Source of the DNA: a virus
Virus record (IMG/VR): IMGVR_UViG_3300045452_000081
Span: 1-39,120 of that record
Direction: 5' to 3' (one strand)
DNA: 39,120 nt
Made by a program: the position numbers and the translations under genes. The notes beneath the pieces were generated by a model, which was not told where the DNA came from, ran no database searches, and saw nothing but the letters and a program-made list of their open reading frames with translations. Of the stretch, positions 5,127 to 39,120 are shown one piece after another (positions within the stretch are counted from its first letter, which is position 1; every line of letters begins with the position of its first letter).

Positions 5127-5740
5127 GTCTTTGTCTCCGGCTTCTTACGAATGCCGAGCACCTGTTCACGGATCGCGTTGACGGCTTCGGCCGACAGGCC
5201 CTTCTCGCGGGCGACCTGGTCGACGGCCTTCGCCGCCGCGTCCTTCAGCTCGGCCTCGATCTTCCGCCGCGTGTCGGCGCTGATGCGCTTGGCCTGCTCG
5301 GCAGCACTGATGGCGCGCGCGCATTCCCGCAGCATCGTCGCCGTTTCGCCGTCCGCCTTCATCTCGCCGGCATTGGTCAGCAGCTCCAGCGTGAGCGTCT
5401 TGATGGTCTCGGCCACCATCAGCGTCACCGAGTTGTCGCCGGCTTCGTCGAGCTTGGGCGCCAGCACCTGGGCGATGGCGCGCGTCTCCTCCAGCCGGTT
5501 CGACAGCTTTGCGATCTTCAGCGCGGTCCTGTTGAACGCCGAACGCGAGATGACCGGCGGCGTGATCGTCACGTCGTGCGCCAGCGCCGCCGCTTTCAGC
5601 CGGGCGTTGAACTCGTCCAGGATGTCGAGCTGGCTCTTCTTCCGCTTCTTCAGCTGCTCGAACGCCCAGAGCTTCGCCTCGTCGGCCCACTCCGGCAGCA
5701 GATCGATTTCGGAGAGTCGCCCGCGCCGTGCGGCGTCCAT
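5123..5740 (-). CDS. DUF3486 family protein (Mu gp27-like, probable small terminase subunit)
   Basis: A 205-residue, mostly helical, highly charged protein. The opening (RGRLSEIDLLPEWADEAKLWAFEQL) and the following segment with KSQLDILDEFN and SRSAFNR match the DUF3486 / Mu gp27 family. That family occupies the small-terminase position next to terminase large subunit and is thought to recognise DNA for packaging. The second half is a long predicted coiled coil rich in Ala, Glu and Lys. The ATG at 5740 and the ATGA overlap with the ASCH gene fit the operon. Confidence 0.82.
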   Translation of the reverse strand: MDAARRGRLSEIDLLPEWADEAKLWAFEQLKKRKKSQLDILDEFNARLKAAALAHDVTITPPVISRSAFNRTALKIAKLSNRLEETRAIAQVLAPKLDEAGDNSVTLMVAETIKTLTLELLTNAGEMKADGETATMLRECARAISAAEQAKRISADTRRKIEAELKDAAAKAVDQVAREKGLSAEAVNAIREQVLGIRKKPETKT

Positions 5741-6588: not shown

Positions 6589-6778
6589 CGGTCTTTGCCC
6601 TGCTTCTCAGGTTTTCAAGAGACTGTTGATCCTGCCGCGCGCGTTCCGCGGCCTTGCCGGCGCTGAAGACCTTCAGCACGGCGATGCCCACCGCCAGCGC
6701 GATGCCGGCGCCGGCGGCGATCGTGCGGCCGACTTTCGACGTCAGGAACCATGTCACGACCGGCGTGAACGGGATCAT
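6509..6778 (-). CDS. Rz-like inner-membrane spanin (i-spanin)
   Basis: An 89-residue protein with an N-terminal membrane segment (TIAAGAGIALAVGIAVLKVF, about residues 19-38). The periplasmic part that follows is charged and helical (AERARQDQQSLENLRSR) and ends in a polar tail. Topology, length and the 80-base out-of-frame overlap with a lipoprotein gene indicate an i-spanin. It begins with an ATGA overlap to the endolysin gene. A longer reading in this frame up to 7342 is only a shadow of the endolysin. Confidence 0.75.
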   Translation of the reverse strand: MIPFTPVVTWFLTSKVGRTIAAGAGIALAVGIAVLKVFSAGKAAERARQDQQSLENLRSRAKTDDEVRNLDVVDFNKRLDRWVRPDREG

Positions 6779-7659
6779 GCCGGCACTCCCTCGGGCAGTT
6801 CGGCCATCAGTTCGCCGTCGATCGCTGCCTGGGCGCGCTTCTTCTTGCGGCTCGACCAGATGCCGTAGACGACGCTGCCGACCGCGATGACCACGCCGGC
6901 CACAACGAGGGCGAGGTAGATGTTGCGAAGGATGTCGGACGTGCCGATGAACGGCTCCAGGTGCCCCTGCAAGCCCTGCAGCAGGCCGGACAAACCGCCT
7001 GCGCCGGCGGCGGTCTTGGTCGCGTCCTCCGCATCCACCGCAGGCTGCGCGACGCTCGACGCGTAAGCCTTTGCCGCGCCGCCTTCGGTATGAGCGGCGA
7101 CGGGATCGGGACCGACTGAGCCGGTCGCCCAGGCCTGTCCAATGCGCTTGACGTTGCCGAGCCGCGCGGACCAACCCTTGCCGAACGTCGCCCAGGTGTC
7201 GAGATTGCGCAGCATGCCGAGCCGGCGCGAGAGAATCTCGGCGATCAGCGCGTCGTGATCGGGATGTGCGGCGACTGCCGCGAGCGTTGCCTCGCCGATG
7301 TGGCCGTCGACGTCCTTCATGCCGAGCGCGCGTTGCAGCCACTTTGCCGCCTGGAACGGGCCGGAGTTCACGGCGCCGTCGAACATCACGAGATCGATGC
7401 CGGCTGGCAGCGCGTCGCCGCGGATCGCGTTCCAGTACTGCGCGCGATAGATCGCGTTGCGATCCTCGATCCAGCCCACGGTGCCGCGCATCGCGGGGTT
7501 GAGCGTCTGCCGCGGCCTGCCCGCACGGTCGCGGAAGCCGTCGTAGACGCGCTGGATCACGCCCTCCAGCGTGCGCCCGCCCGGATCGCGCGGATGGTTG
7601 GCGAATCCGCCTTCATAGGCGAGAACAACCTTCAGGCTCTTTTCGAAGTTGGCGCGCAA
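6775..7659 (-). CDS. Endolysin, glycoside hydrolase 108 family, with C-terminal membrane segment
   Basis: A 294-residue muramidase. The N-terminal 170 residues match GH108: FEKSLKVVLAYEGGFANHPRDPGGRT, where Glu16 is the expected catalytic acid, then AQYWNAI and IDLVMFDGAVNSGPFQAAKWLQRALG. Unusually, after an Ala/Gly-rich linker it carries a transmembrane helix (IYLALVVAGVVIAVGSVVYGIW, about residues 247-268) followed by SRKKKR, a positive-inside stop signal. The protein may therefore be tethered to the inner membrane, or the C-terminus may take over a holin-like role, since no separate holin is evident in the lysis block. It is the first gene of the leftward late operon, 57 bases from the late control palindrome. 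Confidence 0.88.
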   Translation of the reverse strand: MRANFEKSLKVVLAYEGGFANHPRDPGGRTLEGVIQRVYDGFRDRAGRPRQTLNPAMRGTVGWIEDRNAIYRAQYWNAIRGDALPAGIDLVMFDGAVNSGPFQAAKWLQRALGMKDVDGHIGEATLAAVAAHPDHDALIAEILSRRLGMLRNLDTWATFGKGWSARLGNVKRIGQAWATGSVGPDPVAAHTEGGAAKAYASSVAQPAVDAEDATKTAAGAGGLSGLLQGLQGHLEPFIGTSDILRNIYLALVVAGVVIAVGSVVYGIWSSRKKKRAQAAIDGELMAELPEGVPA

Positions 7660-7705
7660 CGGCTCGATCCCCTTGTGCAGGATCGAGCTATCCCGTTATT
7701 TCCCG

Positions 7706-7733
7706 GAATCGATAACCCTGACAGGTGTCAGGG
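7706..7733 (-). promoter_or_regulatory. Late operator/promoter, copy A: 18-bp palindrome plus GANTC site (Plys-like)
   Basis: Bases 7716-7733 read CCCTGACAGGTGTCAGGG, a palindrome with 8-bp perfect arms around a 2-bp centre. The 21 bases 7713-7733 recur exactly, in inverted orientation, at 20548-20568 in front of the other late operon. On the endolysin side a GANTC site (7706-7710) lies five bases beyond the palindrome. Mu controls the equivalent lys promoter through the Mor-family activator C. By analogy I infer that this is the binding site of the Mor-like protein encoded just upstream. Confidence 0.72.
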
Positions 7734-7779: not shown

Positions 7780-8121
7780 ATGTGTTCGAACTGGTGGTCG
7801 GTCGTAGGCCTGACGATGGACGCGATCGGGTTTCTGATCATCGCATGGGAGTGGCGAATTGGCTACCTTGGCCTTCAAGACGACTTAGCGGGGCGAATTG
7901 AGCGTGTGCTCGACCGGCGGATGGCGGCCGCTGAAGGACTCGATCCCGAAGAGCCGGATGATCCCGACTTTCCGTTGAACTGGAATCACGTTCAGCAGGA
8001 GTACTGGAAGGAGCTGACGCGCCGAGGCAGAACGTTCATGGCCGGCATGGTGCTGGTGATTTTTGGTTTCCTGTTTCAGCTGATCGGGAGCTGGCCGAAC
8101 CTGTTCAAGGCGTGCAGCTAG
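7780..8121 (+). CDS. Small membrane protein transcribed against the phage arm
   Basis: A 113-residue protein with two hydrophobic segments, near the N-terminus (LTMDAIGFLIIAW) and near the C-terminus (FMAGMVLVIFGFLFQLIGSWP). A cytoplasmic-looking acidic stretch lies between them. GAGG six bases before the ATG serves as ribosome binding site. It is the only rightward gene inside the leftward late/middle block, and its stop codon overlaps that of the Mor-like gene in a CTAG tetranucleotide. Such isolated, oppositely oriented membrane genes in prophages are often lysogenic-conversion or superinfection-exclusion genes; that role is inference. Confidence 0.72.
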   Translation: MCSNWWSVVGLTMDAIGFLIIAWEWRIGYLGLQDDLAGRIERVLDRRMAAAEGLDPEEPDDPDFPLNWNHVQQEYWKELTRRGRTFMAGMVLVIFGFLFQLIGSWPNLFKACS

Positions 8122-8519
8122 AACAACTTTGCCTGCCGACTGTCCCTCATACCCCGGCGCTTGGCTCGATGGCGATGCACCGTGCGCTGGGCGATCCCGA
8201 GTGCTCGCGCGAGCTGCGCCGAGGATTCCGACCTATCCGCCTTGTCGAGCCGCTCGGCGATCTTGCGGATGAGCTGGCGGTACGTGCCGGCGAACACCGG
8301 AATATCGACGCGCTGCCCGCGCCGGCTGTCCACCGCGAAGTGTCGCATCAGCTTGTCCGCCGCCTCGCGGCCGACGCACCTGACGAGCCAGTGCCGGTCC
8401 GAAGCCTCGGCGGGAATATAGACGCGCGTGCCGCCGGCCACGTCGACGAGCTTGAGCATCGCGGGCAGGCCCGCGACGCTCTCGATCTCGCCGAGGATGC
8501 CGGACAGCGGCTCGGTCAT
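8118..8519 (-). CDS. Mor-family-like transcription activator
   Basis: A 133-residue protein resembling Mu Mor/C activators. The first half contains GGTRVYIPA and WLVRCVGREAADKLMRHFA, the pattern of the Mor dimerisation region. The C-terminal part is a helix-turn-helix (SSAQLARALGIAQRTVHRHRAKRRG, about residues 99-123). In Mu, Mor activates the middle promoter and its relative C the late promoters; here a single such gene lies directly before the lysis genes, as mor/C do in Mu. I infer that it acts at the two palindromes at 7716 and 20548. ATGA overlap with the upstream gene. Confidence 0.72.
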   Translation of the reverse strand: MTEPLSGILGEIESVAGLPAMLKLVDVAGGTRVYIPAEASDRHWLVRCVGREAADKLMRHFAVDSRRGQRVDIPVFAGTYRQLIRKIAERLDKADRSESSAQLARALGIAQRTVHRHRAKRRGMRDSRQAKLF

Positions 8520-8782
8520 GCGCGTTTGCCGTCCCTTGCCGTGGTCGAGCCGGTGATGGAAACGACGACGTTGTCGCGCAGCACGTAGCGCAGGCCGTCC
8601 GCGACGATCACCAGTTCCTTCTGGCCGATCGTATCGGCGGCGTTGACGGCCCGTTTCAATGAGACTTCAAGCGCCGTTCGCAAGGTCTCGACGTCGAGCC
8701 CGCCGGCGCGCTCGATGAAGCGCAGCAGTGCGTGATCGGAGACGCGGACGATGCCAGCGCGGCGGCGGTCAGACCCACGCAT
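8516..8782 (-). CDS. Conserved phage hypothetical protein
   Basis: An 88-residue protein of a type seen in alphaproteobacterial Mu-like phages, with the core VRVSDHALLRFIERAGGLDVETLR and a C-terminal beta-rich half (KELVIVADGLRYVLRDNVVVSI). I recognise the family by pattern but know no function. The start at 8782 overlaps the GcrA-like gene by 14 bases; the longer in-frame reading to 8923 lies wholly within that gene. It is followed by the activator gene through an ATGA overlap. Confidence 0.72.
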   Translation of the reverse strand: MRGSDRRRAGIVRVSDHALLRFIERAGGLDVETLRTALEVSLKRAVNAADTIGQKELVIVADGLRYVLRDNVVVSITGSTTARDGKRA

Positions 8783-9332
8783 CGACGGAAACTCCGTAGG
8801 GCCGGCGTTCGCGGACCGGCTGGCGCGCCGGGCGTGTGCGATCAACGGAGCGGAAGGCGTGTGCCGCGCAGTAAGGACCGTCGCCCTCGGCCACGGCGCC
8901 GCAGAAAAAGAAATCCGGCTCACGCGGATCGCCGACCGGCCAGTGACAGCACAAGCTATCGAGCTGCATCAGCGACCGGCGCTGCTCGAGCGGGATCGCC
9001 AGATCGTCGACCGGCGGAGGCGGCTGGCGTCTCAGCGTCGGCGCCGGTGCCGCCGGTCGATTGAAGGTGTCACGCGGTTTCCGTGCGCGCGGCGTCCGCG
9101 GCATGGCAACTCGGTTGTGAGACCTGGCACCGCCCGCGCCGAGTCCCTTGCGGTTGACGGCGCTGATCACAGCGTTGCGCGTCGTGGTGCCGAGCAGGCA
9201 AGCACACTGCGCTGCGGAGTAACCTGCGAGCCAAAGCTTCTGCAGAATCGCAACGCGGTGTTCGGTCCAACCGGACTGGCGTTGCGCTTCGTGCAGATCA
9301 GCGTCGCTAACGACCTCGGCGCGGGCGAGCAT
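8769..9332 (-). CDS. gcrA: GcrA-family cell-cycle regulator homologue
   Basis: A 187-residue protein with the two conserved ends of alphaproteobacterial GcrA. Near the N-terminus is the DNA-binding signature WTEHRVAILQKLWLAGYS, then TRNAVISAVNRKGL (about residues 22-64). After a basic, proline-rich linker the C-terminal sigma-binding type motif appears: LDSLCCHWPVGDP, DFFFCG, PYCAAH. Host GcrA binds sigma70 holoenzyme and activates promoters carrying CcrM-methylated GANTC. The start has a good AAGGAG eight bases upstream. A phage copy could redirect RNA polymerase to phage promoters; both late control regions here carry a GANTC site. Confidence 0.88.
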   Translation of the reverse strand: MLARAEVVSDADLHEAQRQSGWTEHRVAILQKLWLAGYSAAQCACLLGTTTRNAVISAVNRKGLGAGGARSHNRVAMPRTPRARKPRDTFNRPAAPAPTLRRQPPPPVDDLAIPLEQRRSLMQLDSLCCHWPVGDPREPDFFFCGAVAEGDGPYCAAHAFRSVDRTRPARQPVRERRPYGVSVDAWV

Positions 9333-20547: not shown

Positions 20548-20574
20548 CCCTGACACCTGTCAGGGTTACGAATC
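20548..20574 (+). promoter_or_regulatory. Late operator/promoter, copy B: 18-bp palindrome plus GANTC site (PI-like)
   Basis: Bases 20548-20565 read CCCTGACACCTGTCAGGG, the reverse complement of the site at 7716-7733; the exact match extends over 21 bases (20548-20568). A GANTC site follows at 20570-20574, four bases from the palindrome on the side facing the operon, with CCGGA after it as in copy A. The protease/scaffold gene starts 28 bases further. Mu has its PI late promoter at this place. I infer a shared late activator and possibly methylation-dependent control. Confidence 0.72.
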
Positions 20575-20601
20575 CCGGATGAGGCCGCCAATGATGGCCG
20601 C

Positions 20602-21690
20602 ATGTCGGGGCAAACGCAAACAGCTTTGTCGGTGGTGCGCGGCGCTGGAGTGCCGATCGCGCTGAACGCCGATGGCAGCATTCCGGATTGGATCATGCTG
20701 CTGCCGGCGGGCAACGACGGCGTGATCGCAACCGTTGACGGCCGCGGCCCGTATCGCGTCGGAGATCTCGCGCAGCTCGCTTCGGCCAGCCTTGACGCGG
20801 TCGGCGGGCAGCTCCTCATCGACGAGAACCACGCGACCGATATCGCGGCACCCCGCGGCGGCGAGTCGCCGGCGCGCGCCTGGGTGGCCGAGCTGCAGGT
20901 GCGCGGCGACGGCCTCTACGGACGCGCCGAATGGAATGCGGCCGGCAAGGCGCTGATGGCCGATCGCGCGTACCGCTTCATCTCGCCGGTGATCGCTCAC
21001 GACAAGGCCGGCAACGTAAAGCGCCTCCTGCGCGCGTCCCTCACCAACACACCCAACCTGCGCGGGATGGCCGCGCTTCACGCGGAGACAAACATGGACC
21101 TGCTTGCCCAGCTGCGAAAACTCCTCGGCCTCGGCGATGACGCCGACGAGGCTGCGGTGCTCGCGAAGATCAAGTCCTGGACGGACTCGGCCAAGACGGC
21201 GATGCAGGCGGCGCTGGCGCCGATCGCCAAGGCCGCCGGCTGCAAGGACGATGCCGACGCGACCGCGATCGCCACCGCCGTCACGGCGCTGGCCGCTCGC
21301 CCCGCAACCGATCAGTCGACGACGATCACGGCGCTGCAGAGCGAGCTTGCGACCGTCACCACGAAGCTCAACGAGCTGACGGCGCAGACTGCGAAGGACA
21401 AGGCGACGGCTTTCGTCGACGGCGAGATCGCCAAGCAGCGCGTCGGCCTGAAGCCGCTGCGCGATCACTACATCGCCCGCCACGCGGCGAGCGCCGAAGG
21501 CGCCGCCCAGGTCGAGAAGGAGATCAGCGCGATGCCGATCCTCGGCCCGTCCGGGCTGCCGACGACGCCGCCTGAGATCAAGGACGGCAAGATCGCGCTG
21601 AACGCCGAGCAGCTCAATGCAGCAAACATGCTTGGCATCAGCCCGCAGGACTACGAGAAGACACTCGCTGCGGAGCGCGCGGCGAGCTGA
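20602..21690 (+). CDS. Capsid maturation protease with C-terminal scaffold (Mu gpI/gpZ-like)
   Basis: A 362-residue protein of the phage I-like family. The N-terminal 160 residues form the protease: GSIPDWIMLLPAGNDGVIATVDGRGPYRV, LIDENHATDIAA, ARAWVAELQVRGDGLYGRAEW and YRFISPVIAHDKAGNVKRLLRASLTNTPNLRGMAAL. The rest is a helical scaffold. An in-frame ATG at 21094 with its own GGAG probably gives the free scaffold, as gpZ arises within Mu gpI. First gene of the rightward late operon; the protein guides capsid assembly and then processes itself and the scaffold. Confidence 0.9.
   Translation: MSGQTQTALSVVRGAGVPIALNADGSIPDWIMLLPAGNDGVIATVDGRGPYRVGDLAQLASASLDAVGGQLLIDENHATDIAAPRGGESPARAWVAELQVRGDGLYGRAEWNAAGKALMADRAYRFISPVIAHDKAGNVKRLLRASLTNTPNLRGMAALHAETNMDLLAQLRKLLGLGDDADEAAVLAKIKSWTDSAKTAMQAALAPIAKAAGCKDDADATAIATAVTALAARPATDQSTTITALQSELATVTTKLNELTAQTAKDKATAFVDGEIAKQRVGLKPLRDHYIARHAASAEGAAQVEKEISAMPILGPSGLPTTPPEIKDGKIALNAEQLNAANMLGISPQDYEKTLAAERAAS
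21094..21690 (+). CDS. Internal scaffold product (gpZ-like), in-frame within the protease gene
   Basis: The ATG at 21094 starts MDLLAQLRKLLGLGDDADEAAVLAKIKSW, in frame with the protease gene (164 codons downstream). It is preceded by GGAG at a seven-base spacing, better than the ribosome binding site of the full-length gene. The 198-residue product is helical with a coiled-coil stretch (TITALQSELATVTTKLNELTAQTAKDKATAF) and an end typical of scaffolds, where the capsid-binding region lies. This is the known gene-within-gene arrangement of protease and scaffold in Mu and lambda. Confidence 0.65.
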   Translation: MDLLAQLRKLLGLGDDADEAAVLAKIKSWTDSAKTAMQAALAPIAKAAGCKDDADATAIATAVTALAARPATDQSTTITALQSELATVTTKLNELTAQTAKDKATAFVDGEIAKQRVGLKPLRDHYIARHAASAEGAAQVEKEISAMPILGPSGLPTTPPEIKDGKIALNAEQLNAANMLGISPQDYEKTLAAERAAS

Positions 21691-38026: not shown

Positions 38027-38289
38027 GCGAAGGTCCCTTCGTCCGAGTGATGGCTCGAACGTGGCCTGCGCCACCGCCGCAGTGAATGTCATTAATGAAG
38101 CCGAAATCTGACTCGGCGATCAGGATCGTCCCCGCCGGTGGCGGGGGAGCAGCGTTGGCGCGCTGCTGCCACGGGCCAGCTTCGACAGCAACCCGTACGA
38201 CGCACCAAACGCGACACGCCGTCCCGCCGCCGCTGCACATGCAACTGCACAGCGCGACGAGAGGGCCATGGATCGGTGCAAGAGTCACG
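38027..38289. other. Gap between fibre genes and methyltransferase, with GC hairpin
   Basis: No convincing gene is seen in these 263 bases; the frames open on either strand give low-complexity Pro, Cys or Arg-rich products. Bases 38130-38146 form a perfect CCCCGCC-GGT-GGCGGGG hairpin with a three-base loop, without a T-run, so a strong stem but not a classical terminator. The gap probably contains the promoter of the methyltransferase gene. Confidence 0.5.
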
Positions 38290-39120
38290 ATGGCACGAGG
38301 AGTTACCTACAGGCGCGTTGAGCCCGTGAAGCCCGCCGCTGCGTATATCGGCGGCAAGAAGCAGCTGGCGGCGGCCGTGATCGAGCGCATCGACCGCGTG
38401 CCGCACGAGACCTATGCAGAGCCGTTCGTCGGCATGGGTGGCGTCTTCTTTCGCCGGCGCAATGTCCCAAAGGCGGAGGTCATCAACGATCGCTCCGGCG
38501 ACGTGGCGACGTTCTTCCGCGTGTTGCAACGTCACTACGTCGCCTTCGTCGAAATGCTGCGCTGGCAGGTGACGTCGCGCCGCGAGTTCGAGCGGCTTAT
38601 GCGAACCGATCCGTCGACGCTGACCGACCTGGAGCGAGCCGCGCGCTTCCTCTACCTGCAGCGCACGGCCTTCGGCGGAAAGGTCGCCGGCCGAAACTTC
38701 GGGGTGTCTGTGAACCTGCCGGCTCGGCTGGACGTCACCAAACTCGTGCCCATGCTGGAGGAGCTGCACGAGCGCCTCGCCGGCGTCGTCATCGAATGCC
38801 TGGACTGGACCGACTTCATCGCCCGCTACGACCAGCCGGGCACGCTGTTTTATCTGGACCCGCCATACTGGGGCTCCGAGCGGGACTACGGCCCCGGCTT
38901 CGAGCGTGCCGACTACGATCGCTTGGCCGCCGTTTTAAGCGGCCTTAAAGGCCACTTCCTGATGTCCATCAACGACGTCCCCGCCATCCGGAGAGCCTTC
39001 GCCGGCTTCAACCTTCGGTCTGTCCCGGTGACCTACACGGTGGCCGCCGGCAACAACGCTCGTCGGATGCGCGAGCTGATCGTCTCGCAGCCTGTTAATA
39101 AGTCGAAAAGCGCTGATTGA
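38290..39120 (+). CDS. DNA adenine N6-methyltransferase, Dam (D12) class
   Basis: A 276-residue methyltransferase. The order is that of the D12/Dam class: a start with AAYIGGKKQLA (residues 17-27), the S-adenosylmethionine motif EPFVGMGGVFF (44-54), INDRSGDVATFFRVLQ, a long helical target-recognition region, and the catalytic DPPYWG (190-195), ending with SINDVPAIRRAF. No restriction enzyme is adjacent, so it is an orphan enzyme that probably protects phage DNA or tunes gene expression. Mu has its mom modification gene at the same end. Target sequence (GATC or other) cannot be read from sequence. It stops at the last base of the window. Confidence 0.92.
   Translation: MARGVTYRRVEPVKPAAAYIGGKKQLAAAVIERIDRVPHETYAEPFVGMGGVFFRRRNVPKAEVINDRSGDVATFFRVLQRHYVAFVEMLRWQVTSRREFERLMRTDPSTLTDLERAARFLYLQRTAFGGKVAGRNFGVSVNLPARLDVTKLVPMLEELHERLAGVVIECLDWTDFIARYDQPGTLFYLDPPYWGSERDYGPGFERADYDRLAAVLSGLKGHFLMSINDVPAIRRAFAGFNLRSVPVTYTVAAGNNARRMRELIVSQPVNKSKSAD

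Follow-up and report, generated by a model that had tools for sequence, protein, structure and literature searches.

In phage Mu, the Mor dimer binds a dyad at −51 to −36 of a promoter that has a −10 element and no −35 element, and the C protein binds a related dyad at the late promoters Plys and PI (PMC4287176). A different type of control is described in Caulobacter, where GANTC sites located between −35 and −10 mark a distinct timing class (PMC4287350); in Brevundimonas, a prophage operon depends on GcrA (PMC7987155). The 39,120-nt stretch of viral DNA analyzed here (hereafter, the window) carries two identical palindromes, each with a GANTC site nearby. The original prediction placed them at the Mu-like Plys and PI positions and combined both types of control, a Mor-like activator and GcrA/CcrM, in a single late switch.

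A Palindrome Pair Upstream of Two Late Operons

The sequence CCCTGACA-NN-TGTCAGGG is present in the window in two exact copies, at 7716–7733 and 20548–20565. Each consists of two 8-bp arms separated by a 2-bp center (CCCTGACA-GG/CC-TGTCAGGG) and is enclosed in an exact 21-bp repeat (7713–7733/20548–20568). The restriction of this repeat to two sites, as predicted, was confirmed by a mismatch scan: no further copy of the palindrome was found elsewhere in the window at up to three mismatches, for which shuffled sequences give 0.03 copies. One palindrome is located upstream of the endolysin gene (glycosyl hydrolase 108, GH108; 6775–7659, minus strand), the first gene of the leftward late operon. 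The other lies upstream of a Mu I-type protease/scaffold gene (20602–21690, plus strand), which is the first gene of the rightward late operon and probably leaderless.

The Plys operator (minus strand), which reads CCCTGACA-CC-TGTCAGGG in the leftward direction, spans roughly −53 to −36 with respect to the predicted start, and the PI operator (plus strand) lies at −54 to −37, counted from the protease ATG. Judged from their sequence and position, the window palindromes very probably mark a pair of divergent Mor/C-type late promoters, with each palindrome being bound by the late-gene activator that the phage itself encodes.

Probable Operators in Related Phages

About 170 related loci were collected by protease-anchored scans of viral contigs and genomes. 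The counts given here derive from these scans and from pattern scans that did not include the GANTC region; an exact palindrome scan of viral contigs, partly biased by its fixed arms, is not the basis of any count. Across these loci, a dyad of varying sequence is situated 5′ of the protease at −53/−54 from the ATG, where the histogram of palindrome offsets has its peak (37 and 32, versus a typical handful elsewhere). Dyads with at least seven of eight positions complementary occur at −53/−54 in 63 of 173 loci or distinct promoters, in comparison with 0.31% of all ATGs, and in 58 of the 173, no 8+2+8 palindrome precedes the protease at that position. The operator arms among the relatives include CCCTGACA, CCCGGACA, GGGTGACA, CCCCGAAA, TGCCCGCC, CCTACAAG and CCCTATCG. 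Pattern scans in which the operator, two T and the ATG were the sole fixed elements recovered proteases and other ORFs of ~390 aa, together with unrelated matches.

The same operator is also found just 3′ of mor in the relatives, where the Plys copy has the same arms as at PI and in most cases begins no more than about 60 bp beyond the mor stop codon. In each of 28 phages, the endolysin and protease sites have their arms in common, while these arms differ from one phage to another. Within one phage, 14.36 of the 16 arm positions match between PI and Plys, versus 9.44 when the pairing is permuted, and none of 20,000 permutations reached the true pairing (p < 5e-5). When one phage per operator class was retained, the true pairing was the best of 40,320. 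This co-variation is the mark left when a regulator encoded by the phage co-evolves with its two sites, and at the level of sequence both the identity of the operators and their co-variation are established. The assignment of the palindromes to Mu-like Plys and PI positions is borne out by the recurrence of the pair in the 28 phages, and control of both late promoters by the Mor-like activator gains support from the co-variation of the two sites. In the TTGA clade, the Plys operators are atypical and the PI operator is canonical; two further lineages (L158 and L164) showed no Plys operator over a search range of 1.3 kb.

The PI Promoter and a Probably Leaderless Protease Message

Alignment of 84 PI promoters at the protease ATG revealed an A/T-rich −10 hexamer at −12 to −7 and no conserved −35 hexamer. 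In the window, the −10 hexamer predicted from this column conservation is AATGAT (20590–20595, plus strand). The position −1 is occupied by C in 71 of the 84 promoters, and the start codon is ATG in 83. None of the 84 has a Shine-Dalgarno-like word before the protease, compared with 252 of 375 downstream genes (67%) and 67 of 415 random positions. The fixed spacing, the conservation of the −10 hexamer and the absence of a Shine-Dalgarno sequence are direct properties of the aligned promoters. Together, the −10 at −12 to −7 and the missing Shine-Dalgarno sequence imply that transcription from PI should begin on the A of the ATG or beside it, so that the protease mRNA, unlike that of Mu, is probably leaderless. 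The window’s PI has both marks of such a promoter, namely a −10 that puts the predicted start at the ATG and no Shine-Dalgarno sequence; it is from this arrangement that we infer the start points and leaderless translation. With the A of the ATG as +1, the PI dyad is centered at −44.5/−45.5, a center near −43.5 being taken as the mark of a Mor/C-type promoter.

The isolated phages POA1180 and RC1 have the same 36-nt spacing between palindrome and protease ATG. The literature searched yielded no report of leaderless mRNAs for transposable phages. In POA1180 (locus L297, 5452–5463), the protease probably does not begin at the annotated TTG; it is the ATG at 5461 that stands 36 nt after the operator, as in all the others. 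Mu-like protease genes of Treponema and other spirochaetes (L221–L224, L228 and L230) seem to carry a −10-like TAGRCTGT immediately 5′ of the ATG, together with weak dyads between −52 and −55. These loci suggest that the leaderless layout may be older than the alphaproteobacterial phages.

Surroundings of Plys

The predicted −10 hexamer of Plys, GATAGC (7687–7692, minus strand), is located at the position homologous to that of the relatives’ hexamer, 23–24 nt after the palindrome. Between operator and −10, the Plys spacer contains a direct repeat, CGGGA-N5-CGGGA (7691–7705, minus strand), which is unique in the window and has no counterpart at the window’s PI. Most of the 16 Plys compared have a pair of CGGGA-like words exactly or nearly 10 bp apart, the position of which slides from one to another. 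A hydrophobic-rich ORF of 113 aa (7780–8121, plus strand) is situated between mor and Plys and is directed away from the endolysin. It is possibly an extra gene, which the symmetric operator could also serve.

The Putative Mor/C-Like Late Activator

The putative activator, a Mor/C-like protein of 133 aa (8118–8519, minus strand), is encoded next to the lysis genes and just upstream of them. It matches PHROG 836, “late transcriptional activator”, at E = 1.3e-26. The Pfam Mor family (PF08765) is matched at E ≤ 0.1 by 18 of the 20 members of its alignment, and the window protein searched singly stays below the threshold of this family. A phmmer search yielded no relative of solved structure, and a profile search yielded weak ones only. 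The structure model (pLDDT 81.6) resembles Mu C and Mor (9l0x and 9l0y) weakly, with Z of 3.5 and 3.3 and in the HTH region only; a Foldseek search gave no significant match. One position of the recognition helix is Arg in all four phages with a CGGACA operator and in 2 of 20 with CTGACA (Fisher p = 0.001, uncorrected for kinship). From the co-variation of its two sites, the Mor-like protein would be expected to bind the palindrome.

GANTC Sites and the GcrA Homologue

On the gene side of each palindrome, a GANTC site is indeed found at the predicted distance, 5 bp away at Plys (7706–7710) and 4 bp away at PI (20570–20574). The motif is rarer than the one per ~300 bp first estimated: the window has 72 sites, one per 543 bp, which is about three times fewer than the 200 of dinucleotide shuffles and 0.59 of the single-base expectation. 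Because of this rarity, the double placement is unlikely to be due to chance, as had been supposed, with p about 5e-5 for a distance of 3–6 bp and a motif chosen after the fact. For GANTC anywhere in both spacers, p is about 0.003 before allowing for the choice of motif. At both window promoters, the site falls within −40 to +40, the interval used to recognize GcrA/CcrM promoters (PMC7987155).

This placement suggested that late transcription needs the Mor-like activator together with GcrA, of phage or host origin, at CcrM-methylated GANTC, which would tie lysis to the host cell cycle. Several observations speak for such a switch, although we consider it improbable. The PI site lies at −32 to −28, between −35 and −10, which is the position of the Caulobacter timing class (PMC4287350). 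Next to mor, the phage encodes the GcrA homologue that had been predicted (187 aa; 8769–9332, minus strand), which matches PF07750 at E = 3.6e-32 and aligns to the structures of both the DNA-binding and the sigma-interacting domains of Caulobacter GcrA. GANTC is found at PI in 12 of 20 close lineages (11 at offset 4 and one at offset 5), with all four bases represented at N, and the hosts of the close relatives are Bradyrhizobium, Rhodopseudomonas and Xanthobacteraceae. As a separate observation, a DNA methyltransferase (PHROG 56; 38086–39120, plus strand) is encoded at the right end of the window and could modify late-promoter sites.

The conservation pattern speaks against the switch. The GAATC of PI is contained in a clade-specific conserved block of 12 bp, TTACGAATCCCG (20566–20577, plus strand), which adjoins the operator and each of whose columns (0–11) is conserved in 13–20 of the 20 close lineages. 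Within TTACGAATCCCG, the GANTC columns are conserved no better than the rest, N (15/20) behaving like G (15) and A (14). At offset 4, GANTC is observed 11 times versus about 7.6 expected from the product of the column frequencies, and the neighboring word TCNCG 12 times versus about 7.5, GANTC being no more unusual. The variation of N, at which A, C, G and T are all seen, was considered as a sign of selection for a methylation site and rejected, since the N column is as conserved as its neighbors. Late promoters of phages with gcrA show an apparent excess of GANTC, but kinship and the shared block confound this comparison.

The Plys site is peculiar to the window: none of the relatives has GANTC at that position, the nearest having CAATTTC or GAATTTC. 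The PI site does not follow gcrA, as it is present in 4 of 10 gcrA-encoding lineages (W, L097, L239 and the TTGA clade) and missing from 6 (L006, L231, L158, L164, L103 and L162/L091), and one phage (L102) has GANTC with no gcrA beside mor. Mapped onto the protease tree, the presence of GANTC changes at least five times, and the more distant phages of the same architecture have no GANTC at PI. The search of relatives for the palindrome-plus-GANTC arrangement thus upheld the palindrome and, in 12 of 20 lineages, the PI site, but not the Plys site, and GANTC is not conserved at both promoters in the gcrA-bearing relatives. With the Plys site confined to the window and six gcrA lineages lacking the PI site, the composite GcrA/CcrM switch was not supported, and from these sequences a methylation switch at the late promoters is unlikely. 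There may be a slim chance that PI, not Plys, is co-activated in this alphaproteobacterial Mu-like clade by the Mor-like protein and GcrA at CcrM-methylated GANTC (−32 to −28); capsid production would then follow the methylation state of the replicating phage DNA. The methylation-gated late switch loses most of its support, and PI is the one promoter where the idea still merits attention.

Proposed Mechanism and Its Meaning

It is highly likely, given the sequence evidence, that the palindromes are the operators of divergent Plys (leftward) and PI (rightward) promoters activated by a Mor/C-type protein, with PI being leaderless. A Mor/C-type dimer, encoded just upstream of the lysis genes, would bind the 8+2+8 bp dyad centered near −45 and bring the sigma-70 RNA polymerase of the host to a −10 hexamer that is weak and has no accompanying −35 element. 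Transcription from PI would start at the A of the protease ATG or 1–2 nt from it, resulting in a leaderless mRNA, and the Plys transcript is predicted to carry a ribosome-binding site on a short leader. The PI GANTC, as part of the clade’s 12-bp block, would most simply represent an extended contact of activator or polymerase. It is very improbable that the palindrome is the operator of a repressor or host regulator, or an RNA hairpin or terminator, for although perfect dyads are common in repressor operators and palindromes can fold as RNA hairpins, this one lies upstream of the predicted start at the fixed −53/−54, the distance of the Mu Mor/C dyads, is found at Plys and PI only and not in the repressor region, varies jointly at its two sites in any given phage, is followed by no U-run and has a 2-bp center too small for an RNA loop.

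Two features are new relative to known Mor/C-type promoters: the protease mRNA, which is probably leaderless, and the operator, which is long and specific to the phage. Sequence alone was enough to define how the late promoters of transposable phages far beyond Mu are built: each phage has an operator of its own, set at a constant distance from a protease start that is probably leaderless. As this distance is fixed, the operators of any such genome can be located directly from its sequence, and start codons can be corrected. The natural series of operators is also a ready test set for the choice of DNA by Mor/C proteins.

Comparison with Known Systems

The Caulobacter GcrA/CcrM promoters resemble the late promoters of the window in the GANTC between −35 and −10 and in the GcrA homologue encoded here; they differ in that GANTC here does not track gcrA in the relatives and is unconserved at Plys. 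The likeness to Mu Plys/PI (C) and Pm (Mor) is in the dyad, upstream of and overlapping the −35 region, and in a −10 without −35. As in Mu, the activator gene is located just before lys, and the same two genes, lys and gene I, are served. In contrast to the short inverted repeats of Mu, the operator here is a long, GC-rich 8+2+8 dyad, and gene I of Mu has a leader with an annotated ribosome-binding site, whereas no leader is predicted at PI here. Across the window (1–39120), the two late operons point away from each other and from an early region in the middle, unlike the single direction of Mu. Among the isolated transposable phages, Rhodobacter phage RC1 has an operator-like palindrome 36 nt before the protease ATG, which is imperfect and has other arms. 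Ochrobactrum phage POA1180, with a 1-bp palindrome center and no gcrA annotated in the stretches examined, has its operator-like palindrome 36 nt before the protease ATG and also right after mor.
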